A stretch of 25,373 bases of DNA from a virus. The notes under the pieces are model-generated. The model made no database searches. It had not been told where the DNA came from and was given only the letters and a program-made list of their open reading frames with translations. This document shows positions 1 to 25,373 of this stretch, piece after piece. Where the stretch lies: IMG/VR virus record IMGVR_UViG_3300043775_002185, positions 1 to 25,373 of that record; one strand, written 5' to 3'. The position numbers and the translations under genes were made by a program. The first letter of the stretch is position 1; the number at the start of each line of letters is the position of its first letter.

Positions 1-126
1 GTGGCTGGTGGCTGGTGGCTGGTGGCTGGTGGCTGGTGGCTGGTGGCTGGTGGCTGGTGGCTGGTGGCTGGTGGCTGGTGGCTGGTGGCTGGTGGCTGGT
101 GGCTGGTGGCTGGTGGCTGGTGGCTG
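1..126. repeat. Perfect 7-bp tandem repeat, 18 copies of GTGGCTG
   Basis: Eighteen uninterrupted copies of GTGGCTG run from the first base of the window to 126, so the array probably extends further left. Each junction between units creates the octamer GCTGGTGG, giving 17 copies at 7-bp steps starting at 4, 11 and so on to 116. Because 7 is not a multiple of 3, all three forward frames read the same Trp/Gly-rich heptapeptide, so the open frames here are a by-product of the repeat and not genes. Confidence 0.95.
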
Positions 127-7295: not shown

Positions 7296-7474
7296 AAGAG
7301 GTAGATTGTCTGGTGCATACATCCGCTGATGATTTGCGGGTTCAAACCAGGTATTTCCGCATGACGGGCGTTTATCCTGAGAGCGCTGTTCTGCGCGAAG
7401 CTCACGAAACTTGCGTGCGGCTTGGCTACAAAACAAAGGCGAAAATTTTGCAACCCCTTCTGAAGCGGCCATGA
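7292..7474 (+). CDS. Hypothetical small protein (60 aa)
   Basis: The product is a short mixed-structure protein ending in a basic tail (YKTKAKILQPLLKRP). It overlaps both neighbours by ATGA, and its stop is coupled to the terminase start. No family recognised. Confidence 0.55.
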   Translation: MKEVDCLVHTSADDLRVQTRYFRMTGVYPESAVLREAHETCVRLGYKTKAKILQPLLKRP

Positions 7475-9174
7475 TTCCTCAAACCAAAAGCCCAGTCATC
7501 CCCGAGATCGTCATCGAAGGCCGCCGACCGGACGGCACCTTTGTTGTGCAGTATCGTGGCCAACGCCTGGGAGCCACCGAGGCGCAGTTGCTTGCCATCC
7601 ACCGCGAGCGCGAGGAGCAGATCGCCCGCATGGTGGAGGATCCGTGGCGCTACGGGTGGGAGAATCCCGCTTGGGCGCGGGCGGATGCCGCATTCTCGGA
7701 GTTGCGGGAAAAATTTCCAAAAGGCGTTACAGAGCTTCTCATCCTCGGCGGAAACCGCTCGGGCAAGTCGCGCTACTATGCGCGGCGGGCCATGCAACAC
7801 CTCGTCAACAAACCCGGCGCAAAGGTGTGGTGCCTGCAAAGCACGGAGGCCGCATCAATCCAGAGCCAGCAACCCTACATTTGGGAATATCTGCCGCAGG
7901 AATGGCGGCCGGCCGGAAGTGGCAAACTCAAAAAAGGCAGCGTGGCAAACATCACCTACTCGCAGAAAGGGGGATTCACCGAAAACTCGCTGGTGCTGCC
8001 GAATGGATCGCAGTGTTGGTTCAAATTTTACTCGATGGATGTCACCTCTATCGAGGGCAGTGAGTTGGATTTCGTATGGGCCGATGAATTGGTGACGCCG
8101 GATTGGATCGAGGCGCTGCGCTTCCGTTTGCTCACCCGCGACGGCGAGCTGGGCATCGGCTTCACGCCGATTGAAGGCTACACAACGACTGTCAAAGAAT
8201 ACCTCGACGGCGCGAAGACGATTGAAGAAGTCGATGCCCCGCTCCTGCCGCGCTACCGCGAGGGCAACTTGATCGGCTTGGAGCAAGTGCCGCGCATCCA
8301 GCAATGCACCCGCGAGAAAGCCCGAGTTGTTTATTTCCACACCAGCGACAACCCCTACGGAAACCCCGAGGCCATGGAGACGGAGCTGCGCGGCAGCAAC
8401 CGCGAGCGAATCTTGATGCGTGCCTATGGCGTGCCGACAAAAGCCAAGATGTCGATGTTTCCAAAATTCCGCGAAGGCGTGCATGTGGTGCCTGCCGACA
8501 AGGTGCCGGGCGATGGCACGGTCTTCCAATTTGTCGATCCCGGCGAGGGCAAGACATGGGCCATGTTGTGGATCCGCTACACGCCGGATGGCCGGTGCTG
8601 GATTTACCGCGAGTGGCCCGACCAGCTTGAATACATCGAAGGCGTGGGTTATCCCGGCGCGTGGGCCGAGGCGGATGGCAAGCTGCAAGACGGCCGCCCT
8701 GGGCCTGCCCAAAAAGCCTGTGCCGGTTTTGGATTCGATGACTACAAGCGCATCATCGAAGCCGCCGAGAAAGCCGACTCCGCCGAAGTCGCCGAGCGTT
8801 GGATGGATAGCCGCTATGGCAACACGCCGACCATGACGCATGAAGGCGTGCGCACGCTCATCGAGCAATGCAGCGACCGCATCGGGCTCGACTTCCGCGC
8901 CACCAGCGGGCAGGCCATTGTGGAAGGCGTCACGCTCATCAACGATTGGCTGGCCTACAACGAAGACGCGCCGGTCGATGCCCTCAACTCACCGCGACTC
9001 TACATTTCCGACCGCTGCAAAAATCTCATCTACGCGCTCAAAACTTGGACCGGTGCGGATGGCAAAAAGGGAGCGACCAAGGATTGGATCGACATCTGCC
9101 GCTACATCACGCTTTCCGGCGTGGGCTACGAAGACCCCGCCATGCTGCGAGCCCGACCAGGAGGCTGCTATTGA
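7471..9174 (+). CDS. terL: Phage terminase, large subunit
   Basis: This 567-residue protein is the DNA-packaging motor and nuclease. The ATPase domain shows Walker A GGNRSGKS (G93-S100, K99) and Walker B DFVWADE (D200-E206, catalytic E206). The C-terminal RNase H-like nuclease begins near FVDPGEG with D356, a likely metal ligand, and continues to FGFDDYKR. The start at 7471 overlaps the upstream stop by ATGA; the frame is open from 7411, but that would overlap the previous gene by 64 bases. The stop codon lies inside the TTGACA of a promoter-like motif. It would act with the portal encoded at 12786 to fill the head. The small subunit is not obvious next to it. Confidence 0.95.
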   Translation: MIPQTKSPVIPEIVIEGRRPDGTFVVQYRGQRLGATEAQLLAIHREREEQIARMVEDPWRYGWENPAWARADAAFSELREKFPKGVTELLILGGNRSGKSRYYARRAMQHLVNKPGAKVWCLQSTEAASIQSQQPYIWEYLPQEWRPAGSGKLKKGSVANITYSQKGGFTENSLVLPNGSQCWFKFYSMDVTSIEGSELDFVWADELVTPDWIEALRFRLLTRDGELGIGFTPIEGYTTTVKEYLDGAKTIEEVDAPLLPRYREGNLIGLEQVPRIQQCTREKARVVYFHTSDNPYGNPEAMETELRGSNRERILMRAYGVPTKAKMSMFPKFREGVHVVPADKVPGDGTVFQFVDPGEGKTWAMLWIRYTPDGRCWIYREWPDQLEYIEGVGYPGAWAEADGKLQDGRPGPAQKACAGFGFDDYKRIIEAAEKADSAEVAERWMDSRYGNTPTMTHEGVRTLIEQCSDRIGLDFRATSGQAIVEGVTLINDWLAYNEDAPVDALNSPRLYISDRCKNLIYALKTWTGADGKKGATKDWIDICRYITLSGVGYEDPAMLRARPGGCY

Positions 9175-11355: not shown

Positions 11356-12366
11356 ATGGCAGCTACACCCATCACGACAGTCAAAGGCCAACGCGAGGAT
11401 CTCTCCGACGCAATGGTCCTCATCGAACCCGGCGATACACCGCTTTTCTCCATGTGCAAAAAGGCCAAGGAGCCAACCAATGTGCTCTTCCAGTGGCCTG
11501 CCGACCGCTACAACGACCCGCAGACAGCAGGCGTCCTCGCTTCCGATGATGTCACCAGCTTCGACGACCAGCACGCTAACCGCGTCCTCCTCAGCGGCCG
11601 CATCCAGAAAGTGCGCCGGGCGTTCCAAGTGGACGACCTCGTTGAAAATGTCGCCGACCTCGCAGGAGTCGGCAAAAAGCAAGCGTTCAACAAGTCCGCT
11701 GCCAAAGCTCTCGTTGAGCTGAAGATCGACATCGAAGCCATCATGGGCTCCGACAATGACAGCCAGGTGCAATCTGGCGCAAACCCCTACAAGACCCGTG
11801 GCGTCGGCGAGTGGATCAAATCCACAGCGCAGGCTGATACGGCTACCGCAGTGGACACCACGTTCCGCACCCCAGCGGCTTCGATCAACACGACCGCGAC
11901 CACTTCTCTCACAGAGAACAATGTCATCGACGTGCTTCAGAGCATCTACGGCGTGCGCCGCGCTCGCCGGAACTACGACCTCGTTTGCGGCGTCGCTCTC
12001 AAGCGTGCGTTCACAAACTTCATCCGCACCCAAGCGGGCAGCACGAATGTCATGTCCTCCGTGCGCACCTTCAACGCCAATGTTTCCGACAAGAAGATCG
12101 TAAACACCATCGACATCTACGAAGGCGACTTCGGCGTTCTCTCGCTGCATGTCTCGACCTACCTCGCTCATGGCGCGGCAGCCGCCGTTTCAGCCGCTCG
12201 CGGCTATGTGCTCGACATGGACCTCGTTTCCATCGGGTTCAATCGCAAACCAAGAATGGAAGAGCTTGAAGACCGTGGCGGTGGACGCCGTGGCTTCTGC
12301 GACGCCATCTTCGGCGTAGCGGTCAGCAACCCGCAGGTTCTCGGCAAATTTGCCGCAACGACCTAA
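11356..12366 (+). CDS. Major capsid protein, SU10-like (HK97 fold)
   Basis: The 336-residue product fits the SU10 major capsid family (DUF5309-type). The N-terminal region reads EDLSDAMVLIEPGDTPLFSM, followed by FQWPADRYND, ASDDVTSFDDQHANRVLLSG and a Q/V-rich strand region (QKVRRAFQVDDLVENVADLA). The C-terminal half has GDFGVLSLHVSTYL and RKPRMEELEDRGGGRRGFCD, typical of capsid A-domain strands. It would form the icosahedral shell. It is followed by a strong stem-loop (12383-12421), and the portal follows one small gene later. There is no Shine-Dalgarno: the start is after an AT-rich TATT. Assignment rests on remembered family patterns. Confidence 0.85.
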   Translation: MAATPITTVKGQREDLSDAMVLIEPGDTPLFSMCKKAKEPTNVLFQWPADRYNDPQTAGVLASDDVTSFDDQHANRVLLSGRIQKVRRAFQVDDLVENVADLAGVGKKQAFNKSAAKALVELKIDIEAIMGSDNDSQVQSGANPYKTRGVGEWIKSTAQADTATAVDTTFRTPAASINTTATTSLTENNVIDVLQSIYGVRRARRNYDLVCGVALKRAFTNFIRTQAGSTNVMSSVRTFNANVSDKKIVNTIDIYEGDFGVLSLHVSTYLAHGAAAAVSAARGYVLDMDLVSIGFNRKPRMEELEDRGGGRRGFCDAIFGVAVSNPQVLGKFAATT

Positions 12367-21235: not shown

Positions 21236-23158
21236 ATGCCAGACGACCAGACCATCACAGAAGGCGACGCCGGGTTTCTCGGCATGGCCTCGCGTCTCAA
21301 TCCCCTCCAGCTCCAGCCGGGCATGGTCCAGTATGTTGAAAACATGCGCCTCGACCGTGGCGTGGCGCAGACCCGCAAGGGCGCGAAGCGACTGGGTGAT
21401 GGCATAAGCTCGGGCACGCAACCTCTCACCATGCCGTTTGCTCTCAATAGCACGGCGATCATCCGCACGGTTTACAGCGGCGGCATCTTGGCCAGTGGCG
21501 TCTTCTCCTCACCGAACTACGACGATGCGAATGAATACATCGTGCTGTGCGGGCCGACCTCGGCTTTTCTCTACCGTCAGGGTGCGGCTATCGAGGAGAT
21601 TTATTATCCCGAAAATGGCACGGCCTCGGACGAGGTATTGGAGCCGACGGATGATGTCTCCTGCATCCAGGCTTTCAACCGATTTTACCTGCTGCGCGAG
21701 GCGGATGCTTCGTTGCCAGGGTGGGGCTGGAAGCTCACCAGCTCCGGTGGCATCGCGGTCTCTGGAAGCACGGCCACGGTCTTCGTGCCCGCACATGGCC
21801 TCGCGGCCGGACAGCGCGTGCGGATCGAGGAGGGTAACGAGGCGGCATTCCAGGGGCATGAGTTCGACATCCTCTCGGCCTCGACAAATTCTTTCACCAT
21901 CGAGGTGCCTGCGCCGACATTAGAAAACCCTGCGGGCACGGCCAGCGACATCGCGGCAGGCATCGCTATCCGCCGGGTGAAGCCGCCGCTGTGGTGGGAT
22001 GGCTCGACGGGGGAGTTCCTCCGCGCCGAGGCGGGCGTGCCTGCGGAGGGCGTCACCTACAAGCGCCTGCGCTCTTGCGCGTGGGCGGCCTATATTGGCA
22101 ACCGCCTCTGGATCCCCGATGGCCGCGACACGGTGGCGATCTCGGATGTGCTGGATCCCGACTTGTTCGACCCCTTTTTCCAAAGCTTCCGCGCCAACCA
22201 GGGCTCGAATGACTACCTGGTGGCGATTCACCCATGGGTGGAGGGCCAAGCGCTGGTCTTCCTGCGCAACTCGATCTGGCTGGCAAACCTCACCGACACC
22301 AGCAACGCGACGGGCGACACCTTCACGGTGGACTCCGCCGTTTCCCGCCTCACCCTGCTCACCGACGAGATCGGCTGCGTAGCGCGGCGCTCGGTGGTGA
22401 CGGCCGGGCAGTTTGTCTTTTTCCTTTCGGATGCCGGGGTTTACCGCCTCGACACCCAGCTCGACCTCAAGCTCCGCGCCAATACCCAGCCGCTGTCGGA
22501 TGCCATCGCCGACCAGCTCGACGAGATCAATACCGACTACGCCTACGCGGCCGTGGGAAAATGGTGGGACAACCGCTACTACCTGGCCGTGCCGCTCGGA
22601 GACACCACGGAGTCGAATAACGCGCTCTTCATTTGGAACGCCCTCAATCAAGCCTGGGAGAGCCGCGACACCTATGCCGTCTCGCTCGATGAGCTCCTCA
22701 TAGCAGGCTACGAGAGCCAGCGCCGCCTCTTCGTGGCCGCCCGCACGGGCTCGCTCTTCCTCTTGGACGAAAACGAATACGGCGACGATGTGCCATTTGC
22801 AAATACCGAGGACCTCTATACCGATGTGGAAGCGGTGCTCGAGACCCGGCGCTTTGGTTTTCAGTCGCTCAACTCCAAACGCCTCCTCCGCGCCAAGGCC
22901 AGCGTGCTCCTGCCGCCGGATGCGGCTTGCGCGATGGATGCCATCACGACCGACTACGACAAAGATTTCCAGATCGCCTCCCTCGCCAACACCACCGAGG
23001 AGGAGGAGACCTACACGCTCAAGGCCCCGCTGCGCTGCAAGGCCACCGCAATCGATATCCGCTTCCGCACCACCGCCGGCCGCCCCAGCCTCCGCACCCT
23101 CATGCTCGAAGCCGCCCGCTCCAGCATGGACCAGACCGAAACCCGCACACTCAACTAA
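21236..23158 (+). CDS. Tail nozzle / DNA-stabilisation-like protein
   Basis: The 640-residue product has the start LGMASRLNPLQLQPGMVQYV, then ENMRLDRGVAQTRKGAKRL, a pattern I associate with podovirus nozzle or stabilisation proteins (T7 gp12 or P22 gp10-like). The body shows repeated beta-propeller-like strands such as RNSIWLANLTDT, FFLSDAGVYRL, ALFIWNALNQAWESRDTYAV and RTGSLFLLDENEYGDD. The C-terminus is a beta domain (KRLLRAKASVLLPPDA). It would close the tail tube and hold the packaged DNA. It follows promoter-like motif copy 3 and the lysis genes, which is not the usual place next to the adaptors. Confidence 0.75.
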   Translation: MPDDQTITEGDAGFLGMASRLNPLQLQPGMVQYVENMRLDRGVAQTRKGAKRLGDGISSGTQPLTMPFALNSTAIIRTVYSGGILASGVFSSPNYDDANEYIVLCGPTSAFLYRQGAAIEEIYYPENGTASDEVLEPTDDVSCIQAFNRFYLLREADASLPGWGWKLTSSGGIAVSGSTATVFVPAHGLAAGQRVRIEEGNEAAFQGHEFDILSASTNSFTIEVPAPTLENPAGTASDIAAGIAIRRVKPPLWWDGSTGEFLRAEAGVPAEGVTYKRLRSCAWAAYIGNRLWIPDGRDTVAISDVLDPDLFDPFFQSFRANQGSNDYLVAIHPWVEGQALVFLRNSIWLANLTDTSNATGDTFTVDSAVSRLTLLTDEIGCVARRSVVTAGQFVFFLSDAGVYRLDTQLDLKLRANTQPLSDAIADQLDEINTDYAYAAVGKWWDNRYYLAVPLGDTTESNNALFIWNALNQAWESRDTYAVSLDELLIAGYESQRRLFVAARTGSLFLLDENEYGDDVPFANTEDLYTDVEAVLETRRFGFQSLNSKRLLRAKASVLLPPDAACAMDAITTDYDKDFQIASLANTTEEEETYTLKAPLRCKATAIDIRFRTTAGRPSLRTLMLEAARSSMDQTETRTLN

Positions 23159-23160
23159 CC

Positions 23161-23946
23161 ATGGCAACTCTCATTAAAGGCAAAACCTTCACCAACGGCG
23201 AACTCGTCACCCCCGCCACGATCCACCAGCTCGTCGATGCGGCGACCATCAGCGGCATCGTCAATGCCGACATTGCGGCTGGTGCGGCCATCGCCGACAC
23301 GAAGCTCGCCACAATTAGCAGCGCAGGAAAAGTGCTACCCGCTGCGGTGCAAGGCACGGCAGTCATCACGACTGATTCCCGTCTCTCGGATGCCAGGACA
23401 CCGACCACGCACACCCACGACGACCGCTACTACACCGAGACGGAGATGACTACTCTGCTGGCAGGCAAGCAAGCCTCTGGAAGCTATGCGCCTGCAACGG
23501 GGATTGCCGCTACTGCCATCACAGGCACGGCTGTTATAACGACAGACTCCCGTCTCTCGGACGCCAGGACACCGACCTCGCATACACACGACGCCTCGGC
23601 AATCAACGCAGGCACACTGGCTATCGCCCGCATTCCGACGGGCGCGACAGCCACCACCGCCTGCATCGGCAACGACTCTCGCCTCTCGGATGCCAGGACA
23701 CCGACCACGCACACCCACGACGACCGCTACTACACCGAGTCGGAGATCGACACAAAACTCTCAGGGTTGCCGGTGAGCGGCCACACGCACACGATTGCCA
23801 ATGTCACTGGCTTGCAAACGGCCCTTGATGGCAAGCAAGCGTCTGGAAGCTATGTCACCAACGGCGGAAGCGTTTCTTCAATTCAGCGGGTCACAGCCAT
23901 GCCAGCTACGCCTGCCGCAAACACTCTTTATATCGTTATTCCTTAA
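23161..23946 (+). CDS. Tail-fibre protein with His-rich repeats
   Basis: The 261-residue product begins with a fibre-like N-terminus (FTNGELVTPATIHQLVDAAT) and contains three repeats of the motif DSRLSDARTPTTHTHD, two of them followed by DRYYTE. The HTHD motifs are of the kind that bind metal along trimeric fibre shafts, and a fourth HTHT occurs near residue 210. The C-terminus (VTAMPATPAANTLYIVIP) is typical of fibre ends. I use the ATG at 23161, two bases after the upstream stop. A 57-bp identical DNA repeat 300 bp apart (23383, 23683) could recombine. It is a distal shaft or collar fibre. Confidence 0.78.
   Translation: MATLIKGKTFTNGELVTPATIHQLVDAATISGIVNADIAAGAAIADTKLATISSAGKVLPAAVQGTAVITTDSRLSDARTPTTHTHDDRYYTETEMTTLLAGKQASGSYAPATGIAATAITGTAVITTDSRLSDARTPTSHTHDASAINAGTLAIARIPTGATATTACIGNDSRLSDARTPTTHTHDDRYYTESEIDTKLSGLPVSGHTHTIANVTGLQTALDGKQASGSYVTNGGSVSSIQRVTAMPATPAANTLYIVIP
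23383..23739 (+). repeat. Exact 57-bp direct repeats 300 bp apart in the fibre gene
   Basis: The segments 23383-23439 and 23683-23739 are identical by eye and start with CTCTCGGATGCC and end with CTACTACACCGAG. A third, diverged copy starts near 23553. Offsets of 171 and 129 bp keep the frame, so unequal exchange would change fibre length by 100 codons. Confidence 0.8.
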
Positions 23947-24894
23947 ATGTCTGATATATCCACAGCGAGCGAAATACGCTTAGGCAGCCAAGCCGCGCCT
24001 GAGGTTTGGTATGGCTCGACAAAGATATGGCCGAGCTTTCAGTTTTTAGTTTCAACTATGCCTTTTGCAAAGCTTCTAACTTCCGTTGCCTACGGTAACG
24101 GAACATTTGTTGCTATTGGTTTTAGTTCAATTTCAGTTTTTTACAGCACTAACGGAACTGATTGGCAAGAAAGAAGCATTGGAGCTTTGAATAGTTTTTT
24201 TTGCATCACATACGGCAATGGAAAATTTGTTGCTTTAACTTACACGGCTTCTAAATCCTGTTTCTACAGCACAGATGGAATTACTTGGGCATCTTCAGCT
24301 CTGCCTTCTTCAGCGACTTCACAAGCTTGGAAATCCGTTACCTACGGGAACGGAAAATTTGTTGCTATTTCTCGTCTTAGCGACAACGCCCTCTACAGCA
24401 CAGATGGAATTAATTGGACATCTTCGACTCTGCCCATTGCGGAAGATTGGCAATCCGTCGCCTACGGAAACGGCAAGTTTGTTGCTGTTTCTGGTTCTCA
24501 ATCTGTTGGTTCTAACAACGCCGCCTACAGCGCAAGTGGTATTACTTGGACATATTTTACTCTGCCTTTTTTGGGAGCATGGAGTTCCATAACTTACGGC
24601 AACGGCAAGTTTGTTGTTGTTGATCTCGGATCAAATAAATCCCTTTACAGCACAGATGGAATTACTTGGGCATCTTCAACCCTGCCTTCTTCGGCAAGTT
24701 GGCAATCCGTCACCTACGGAAACGGCAAGTTCGTTGCTGTTGCCTACGGCACCACAGCAGCTTACAGCGCTGACGGCATTACTTGGACAGCTTTGAATCT
24801 CCCAGATCAAAATTGGCGCTCCCTCACCTATGGAAACGGAAAATTTGTTGCGGTCGCCTATGACTCCAACCAAGCCGCCTACGCAAATGGATAA
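23947..24894 (+). CDS. Asp-box seven-repeat beta-propeller virion-type protein
   Basis: The 315-residue product starts with an attachment-like motif (IRLGSQAAPEVWYGSTKIWP). It then has seven repeats built on YGNGKFVAVA followed by YSTDGITW, the Asp-box pattern S-x-D-x-G-x-T-W. The YGNG codons begin at 24091, 24211, 24343, 24463, 24595, 24715 and 24829, so spacing is 40, 44, 40, 44, 40 and 38 residues. Seven units suggest a seven-bladed propeller; the seventh lacks its Asp box, and the N-terminal strand may close the ring. Asp-box propellers are found in sialidases, but no catalytic set is visible. The gene is AT-rich compared with the head genes, which hints at recent acquisition. It abuts the upstream stop without a gap. 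Confidence 0.8.
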   Translation: MSDISTASEIRLGSQAAPEVWYGSTKIWPSFQFLVSTMPFAKLLTSVAYGNGTFVAIGFSSISVFYSTNGTDWQERSIGALNSFFCITYGNGKFVALTYTASKSCFYSTDGITWASSALPSSATSQAWKSVTYGNGKFVAISRLSDNALYSTDGINWTSSTLPIAEDWQSVAYGNGKFVAVSGSQSVGSNNAAYSASGITWTYFTLPFLGAWSSITYGNGKFVVVDLGSNKSLYSTDGITWASSTLPSSASWQSVTYGNGKFVAVAYGTTAAYSADGITWTALNLPDQNWRSLTYGNGKFVAVAYDSNQAAYANG

Positions 24895-25282
24895 CCCCCC
24901 CTCCATGCTCAAGCAAGACCTCTACCGCAGCCCGAAGCTCGCGGTGCGGCGGAGCCCTGTGCATCGCTGGGGAGTCTTTGCCGTGCAGCCTATTGCCGCA
25001 CATGAACTCCTTGAAGAGTCGCCCTTTTTCTACATCGAAAAGCGCGAGCTCAAGAAAGCCCCCGCGTGCGAGCCATACACTTATTACTTTGACGAATCCT
25101 GGAGCGTCGTCGGCCTCGGCCTCGCCGGGCTCTACAACCACGCAACCACCCCCAACGCAGACCACCAACTCGACAAACTGAACGAGGTCATGCGCCACTA
25201 CTCCACCCGCGCCATCGCAGCCGGTGAGGAGATCACCCTCAACTACGGCGAAGAAAACGCCGCATCCTTCCAGAAAGACTAA
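24887..25282 (+). CDS. SET-domain protein (candidate lysine methyltransferase)
   Basis: The 131-residue product carries the SET landmarks: HRWGVFA (residues 26-32) for the N-terminal glycine loop, LYNHATTPNA (82-91, normally NHSCxPN) for the cofactor pocket and knot, and AGEEITLNYGE (112-122) with Y120 as the likely catalytic tyrosine. No post-SET Cys cluster is present. SET enzymes use S-adenosylmethionine to methylate lysines. The gene overlaps the propeller gene by 8 bases if the ATG at 24887 is used; the ATG at 24905 is also possible and 24830 less likely. It sits inside a virion module, so a capsid, fibre or host protein could be the target. That target is unknown. Confidence 0.8.
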   Translation: MDNPPSMLKQDLYRSPKLAVRRSPVHRWGVFAVQPIAAHELLEESPFFYIEKRELKKAPACEPYTYYFDESWSVVGLGLAGLYNHATTPNADHQLDKLNEVMRHYSTRAIAAGEEITLNYGEENAASFQKD

Positions 25283-25287
25283 ATACT

Positions 25288-25373
25288 ATGGCAATGAACA
25301 TGAGCAGCGGCGGCGGTGGAGGAGGAATGTCCGGTGGGGGAGGGGGCGGCGGTGGCGCGATGAGCGCAGCCCC
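25288..25373 (+). CDS. Gly-rich protein, N-terminal part (cut by window edge)
   Basis: An ATG at 25288, five bases after the SET stop, opens a frame that runs off the window. The visible 28 residues are Met/Ser/Gly-rich with two runs of six to eight Gly. A flexible Gly-rich N-terminus would fit a virion or ejection protein, but too little is visible to name it. Confidence 0.5.
   Translation, partial: MAMNMSSGGGGGGMSGGGGGGGGAMSAA

Follow-up and report, generated by a model that had tools for sequence, protein, structure and literature searches.

What does a SET-domain protein do among the structural genes of a phage, and on which partner and residue does it act? The question is raised by a 131-aa open reading frame near the end of IMG/VR virus record IMGVR_UViG_3300043775_002185, analysed here from position 1 to position 25,373 ('the window' denotes this whole stretch of 25,373 nt). 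To our knowledge, only a minority of SET proteins from prokaryotes and viruses have an established target. A comparison of related genomes suggests that the enzyme of the window phage acts on methionine and not on the usual lysine, since a methionine tract in the neighbouring protein comes and goes with it.

The window contig, a linear IMG/VR fragment, encodes DnaB, a terminase and a capsid protein of the SU10 type. The phage is podovirus-like, and its SET gene sits, as the preliminary description had it, in a virion module (Table 1). The overlap between the SET start and the end of the Asp-box propeller gene was also described correctly and measures 8 nt; the SET stop codon is separated from the next ORF by 5 nt, and the contig end falls 28 codons into this next gene. 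The cyanophage host marker psbA/psbD (PF00124) was absent from the 23 contigs examined.

Table 1. Features of the window around the SET gene and in the virion module
Feature	Position	Strand	Basis
Short tandem repeat at the contig start (GTGGCTG...), possibly an assembly end effect	1-60		
Terminase large subunit	7411..9174	+	PF03237, phrog_2
SU10-type major capsid protein	11356..12366	+	PF17236, E = 3.5e-38
Conserved 640-aa virion protein	21236..23158	+	phrog_3287 virion structural protein, E = 5e-7
Tail-fibre-like protein resembling phage tail repeats (MATLIKGKTF...)	23161..23946	+	PF12789, weak, below cut-off; fibre homologues in relatives
Asp-box-like propeller protein, variable fibre slot	23947..24894	+	Repeats YSTDGITW/YGNGKFVAV
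SET-domain protein, 131 aa, vSET/Set7-like predicted fold, catalytic residues intact	24887..25282	+	Pfam, predicted model, homologues
Met/Gly/Ser-tract protein, start only (MAMNMSSGGGGGGMSGGGGGGGGAMSAA...)	25288..25373	+	Translation; contig end cuts the gene

The identification of a short SET protein with the main motifs is borne out at the levels of sequence and predicted structure. The ORF covers 104 of the 105 positions of the Pfam SET profile PF00856 with 41.8 bits (E = 1.5e-10; the curated cut-off is 22.4 bits), and a sequence search of the PDB places chlorovirus vSET (E = 6e-13) and Schizosaccharomyces pombe Set7 (E = 8e-13) at the top. No PHROGs or NCBIfam match was found for P0001. The AlphaFold2 model (pLDDT 85.9, pTM 0.79) is predicted to be a SET fold; Foldseek matches it best to Set7 and vSET (E about 4e-10; TM normalised by target 0.77 and 0.87, respectively), and the top ones listed among 345 PDB matches at E ≤ 0.001 were all SET proteins or SET-containing complexes. 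The NHxxxPN motif is present as YNHATTPN and the E-...-Y-G motif retains its catalytic tyrosine, with E115, Y120 and G121 invariant.

SET relatives were found in at least 106 IMG/VR contigs in a scan with a three-sequence alignment; 80 were fetched, being 41–100% identical, and residues were compared across 62 unique sequences. Alignments of 45–62 sequences contain invariant R22, H26-R27-W28-G29-V30-F31, Y64, Y66, Y83-N84-H85 and Y120-G121. The NG86 dN/dS ratio is about 0.09–0.30 in 11 of 12 pairs, the twelfth being nearly identical and uninformative. The invariant motif residues and low dN/dS indicate a functional gene under purifying selection, and the protein is very probably an enzyme. A non-catalytic role, in which the SET fold would act as a chaperone in the assembly of the fibre or the tract protein, can be considered, as genes for tail-fibre assembly often occupy the position 3′ of a fibre gene and, in most window-type relatives, SET lies just 3′ of the fibre gene with a 4-nt overlap. 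The residues YNH, YG and RWGVFA, however, are constant even among SET sequences only 41–48% identical, and SET does not share the high variability of the fibre slot, which makes this role very improbable.

The preliminary description had placed SET between two neighbours, the propeller gene and a Gly-rich virion-type gene, and only the second pairing recurs in related phages. The propeller is ruled out as the SET partner because the content of its slot varies; in relatives L004 and L006, it is occupied by fibre genes with S74 or Collar domains. Downstream, all fetched SET loci with sufficient room have a same-strand gene directly 3′ of SET, at a distance of 1–112 nt. The product of this gene is the true constant partner, but it is better termed a protein with a Met-Ser/Gly repeat tract than a Gly-rich one. 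Where complete in relatives, it has 602–981 aa (e.g. the homologue at L002:8402-10666). Its predicted model is poor (pLDDT 46); judging from long helices and from its position in the virion module, the protein may be internal to the virion or ejected from it. Among the virion genes 3′ of the tract protein, a PAPS-reductase-like gene was noticed at two loci (L004:9957-11006 and L118:5633-6727), and downstream in the operon of L002, the locus end truncates a giant protein (L002:11886-16393; more than 1500 aa) with a weak ART-PolyVal match below the cut-off (E = 8e-6).

Co-occurrence was assessed in relatives gathered via the upstream 640-aa virion protein, a marker independent of SET (180 contigs). 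The downstream protein could be read in 64 relatives, and an N-terminal Met tract was present in 45 of the 45 loci with SET and in none of the 19 loci without it (Fisher test, 1e-16, not corrected for relatedness). In the SET-containing loci, the downstream protein starts with [A/G]-M-S repeats and has 9–19 Met and almost no Lys in the first 80 residues; the same region in SET-less loci contains at most three Met and at least three Lys, and many of these proteins begin with a lysine cluster, often MGKKKKSK. On the marker tree, the SET state changes nine times on the best tree, at least five changes being forced by supported branches, and tract presence followed SET at each change. A relatedness-aware sign test found five of five independent pairs concordant (p = 0.06, the floor of the test at five pairs).

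Four SET-containing loci (L134, L129, L135 and L026) have 0–5 Gly but 13–19 Met in the first 80 residues; methionine, not glycine, is thus the constant feature, and glycine is ruled out in this role. Complete partner proteins from SET-containing loci (602–977 aa) have 0–5 Lys each. The body of the protein is Lys-poor in the closest SET-less relatives as well, so lysine scarcity in the body is not specific to SET and the swap concerns the N-terminus. In some SET-less relatives, the SET slot is occupied by another gene of about 120 aa (L165:12843-13208, L166:9137-9502, L163:4209-4616 and L136:3877-4284), followed by an orthologue starting with MGGGGGGSKPK or similar. The L165 copy has no Pfam or PHROGs match; this small gene is possibly an alternative partner.

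The composition of the tract was examined in 47 unique tracts with 565 Met. Met precedes Ser in 464 cases and Gly in 98, and mostly follows Ala or Gly; AMS occurs 346 times, versus 22 in shuffled sequences. Tract serines are encoded by a mixture of AGY and TCN codons in eight of nine phages checked, which indicates that the repeats are mostly constrained at the protein level and makes DNA slippage unlikely as their sole source; the exception is L025, where 17 of 22 units use one codon triplet.

The pairing is also found in unrelated phages. In the window-type phages (context A; longest contigs 35–43 kb, SU10-type capsid), the order is fibre gene, SET and the protein with the Met/Gly/Ser N-terminus. 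Another podo-like group (context B1) has SET, a Gly/Met-rich protein, a 161–198-aa gene and terminase, and the T7-like phage L083 (context B2) has SET, a Gly/Met-rich protein and a head–tail adaptor (phrog_449, E = 2e-172). BLASTP among the partner proteins of A, B1 (two kinds) and B2 revealed no significant similarity outside the tract. At L545-L547, a Met-Ser/Gly tract follows an 88% identical SET. In T4-like phages (context C), with capsid gp23 found in three of their contigs, SET is flanked by genes for a giant protein of about 1770–1910 aa and for an 834–836-aa protein. Both flanks match phrog_358, and in SET-less cyanophages such as S-SCSM1 they form one fused gene. At its end, the giant protein has a Gly/Met/Ser tract and then the first part of an S74 chaperone domain, which places the tract on the side of SET opposite to that in context A.

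Some other features of the T4-like loci can be mentioned. In all the loci read (L082:5291-5969, L068:5277-5977 and others), the Peptidase_S74 domain is divided between the giant protein, whose end contains one part, and a separate ORF of 85–90 aa matching PF13884; a simple programmed frameshift is ruled out, as overlaps and frames vary. The giant protein of L082, of the baseplate type, has a Hint/intein-like domain at residues ~1512–1625 (PT-HINT, E = 8e-5, below the cut-off). The cultured cyanophage S-SCSM1 has a 2OG-Fe(II) oxygenase gene amid its baseplate genes (L089:706-1257), possibly encoding another protein-modifying enzyme in a virion module.

Since SET adjoins the DNA encoding the tract, the two could be exchanged jointly without any interaction of their products. 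SET might be an ordinary lysine methyltransferase of another virion or host protein, the Met tract being a separate linker of low complexity, carried along by adjacency. The nearest structures are lysine methyltransferases, the SET end is contiguous with the tract start so that one recombination moves both, and L006 does not differ from the window at the 3′ end of SET or at the beginning of the following gene. Co-transfer of adjacent genes explains part of the correlation within the window-type group but not the recurrence in unrelated phages: the pairing appears beside non-homologous partners in several lineages, the tract is on the other side of SET in T4-like phages, and the repeated emergence of a Met tract is not expected from hitch-hiking. 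This explanation is considered unlikely. A structural protein, as suggested by the preliminary description, is a possible target of SET, and nothing in this analysis points to the host nucleoid or ribosomal proteins named there.

Reverse scans started from the tract. A scan of IMG/VR for AMSxAMS showed an adjoining SET at every dense-repeat locus among the matches listed, the positives all belonging to group A; 70 further loci among the matches listed, with at most three units each, were without SET. A DNA scan for GGGMSGGGG-type tracts found 16 dense ones; SET lies within 100 nt of 15 of them, and the remaining one belongs to a fragment of a contig with a known SET. There are exceptions: L445 has a short, weaker C-terminal Met/Gly tract and no SET within 11.8 kb. 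The main one is a T4-like trio (L080-L082), in which SET is present and the tract is Arg/Pro-rich with about two Met. An uncultured 735-kb megaphage (L088, LR756501) encodes a 36–39% identical SET that is accompanied by neither a Met tract nor a recognisable virion module. The first round of a genome-contig scan for the host gave no relative; the second gave only chromosomal-type homologues with 27–42% identity, mostly from Acidobacteriota MAGs, and the neighbourhoods of these cellular homologues were without a Met tract.

Among characterised proteins, vSET (PBCV-1 A612L; 31% identity in the Foldseek alignment) is, like the window protein, a compact single SET domain in a virus. It differs in belonging to a virus of a eukaryote and in being an H3K27 methyltransferase with a histone substrate, and we know of no Met tract neighbouring it. 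Set7 (5h6z), the best Foldseek match (E = 3.5e-10, 31% identity), differs as a eukaryotic histone methyltransferase. Uncultured Caudovirales proteins in BFVD (e.g. A0A6J5L8Y2) also have a phage-encoded SET fold and are annotated by name only. Literature searches on phage SET biology and virion lysine methylation yielded one mention, at the annotation level only; a SET ORF is annotated in Stenotrophomonas phage Ps15 (PMC9025141).

The partner tract is almost free of Lys, so ordinary lysine methylation of the tract is unlikely; as this nearly Lys-free Met-repeat tract travels with SET, methionine itself is the indicated ligand or substrate. The active site of SET enzymes accommodates side chains that are long and unbranched, such as that of methionine. 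We know of no established natural SET methionine methyltransferase and of no established natural enzyme–substrate pair for such methylation. SETD3 can methylate a methionine placed at actin position 73 (PMC8446795), and the H73M peptide is bound 76-fold tighter (PMC8537074); this likens SETD3 to the proposed activity, although this large enzyme of eukaryotes has actin His73 as its natural target and contains a RuBisCO LSMT domain. The residues H3K9M, H3K36M and EZHIP M406 occupy SET active sites, and binding of K-to-M peptides to SET domains is SAM-dependent in several cases (PMC5030085, PMC5335568, PMC6513997). Methionine thus enters the lysine channel in these oncohistones and in EZHIP, a natural K-to-M-like sequence (PMC6513997); they differ from the window phages in having a single Met site, and act as inhibitors of human PRC2, whereas the phages have a long repeat tract.

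The explanation tentatively preferred here is that an active vSET/Set7-type methyltransferase works on the Met-repeat tract of the adjacent virion protein and that the pair moves as a unit. The analysis bears out the SET fold, the conserved catalytic residues, selection, co-occurrence, recurrence in unrelated contexts and the lack of lysine in the tract; the contact between tract and enzyme, and the chemistry, are inferred. The [A/G]-Met-[Ser/Gly] repeats would offer their Met side chains to the lysine channel of SET, and the methionines would most likely be S-methylated, yielding sulfonium cations and a positively charged N-terminus. Such a polycationic tract would parallel the KKKK start of many SET-less orthologues. 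The narrower proposal that a SET-type enzyme is dedicated to methionine methylation and places many S-methylmethionine (sulfonium) charges along the repeat tract of a phage virion protein is rather doubtful.

In a close alternative, the methionines would be bound as unreacted pseudo-substrates, loading the enzyme in the virion or silencing it there. In one form of this mimicry, the enzyme, docked to tract methionines, would enter both the virion and the infected cell with them and there methylate lysines of another host or phage protein. Besides the known K-to-M peptides, this form would be favoured by the many Met per chain, which could load many enzyme copies, and by the tract motifs MSAPA and MSTGG, corresponding to the residues after K27 and K9 in the H3 K-to-M peptides. 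MSAPA occurs 27 times in 16 of the 47 unique regions versus 0.3 in shuffled sequences, and MSTGG nine times versus 0.2, but low complexity and shared descent inflate these counts and make them weak, and shuffles preserving MS units give up to seven and six, respectively. No other substrate is obvious, and the docking of a lysine enzyme also seems unlikely.

The genome comparison points to a specific SET partner and a specific residue, methionine. If the methionines are methylated, the phages would possess a new system of protein modification whose repeat substrate is genetically encoded; if they are pseudo-substrates, the oncohistone K-to-M trick would have evolved in phages in a natural, repeated form.
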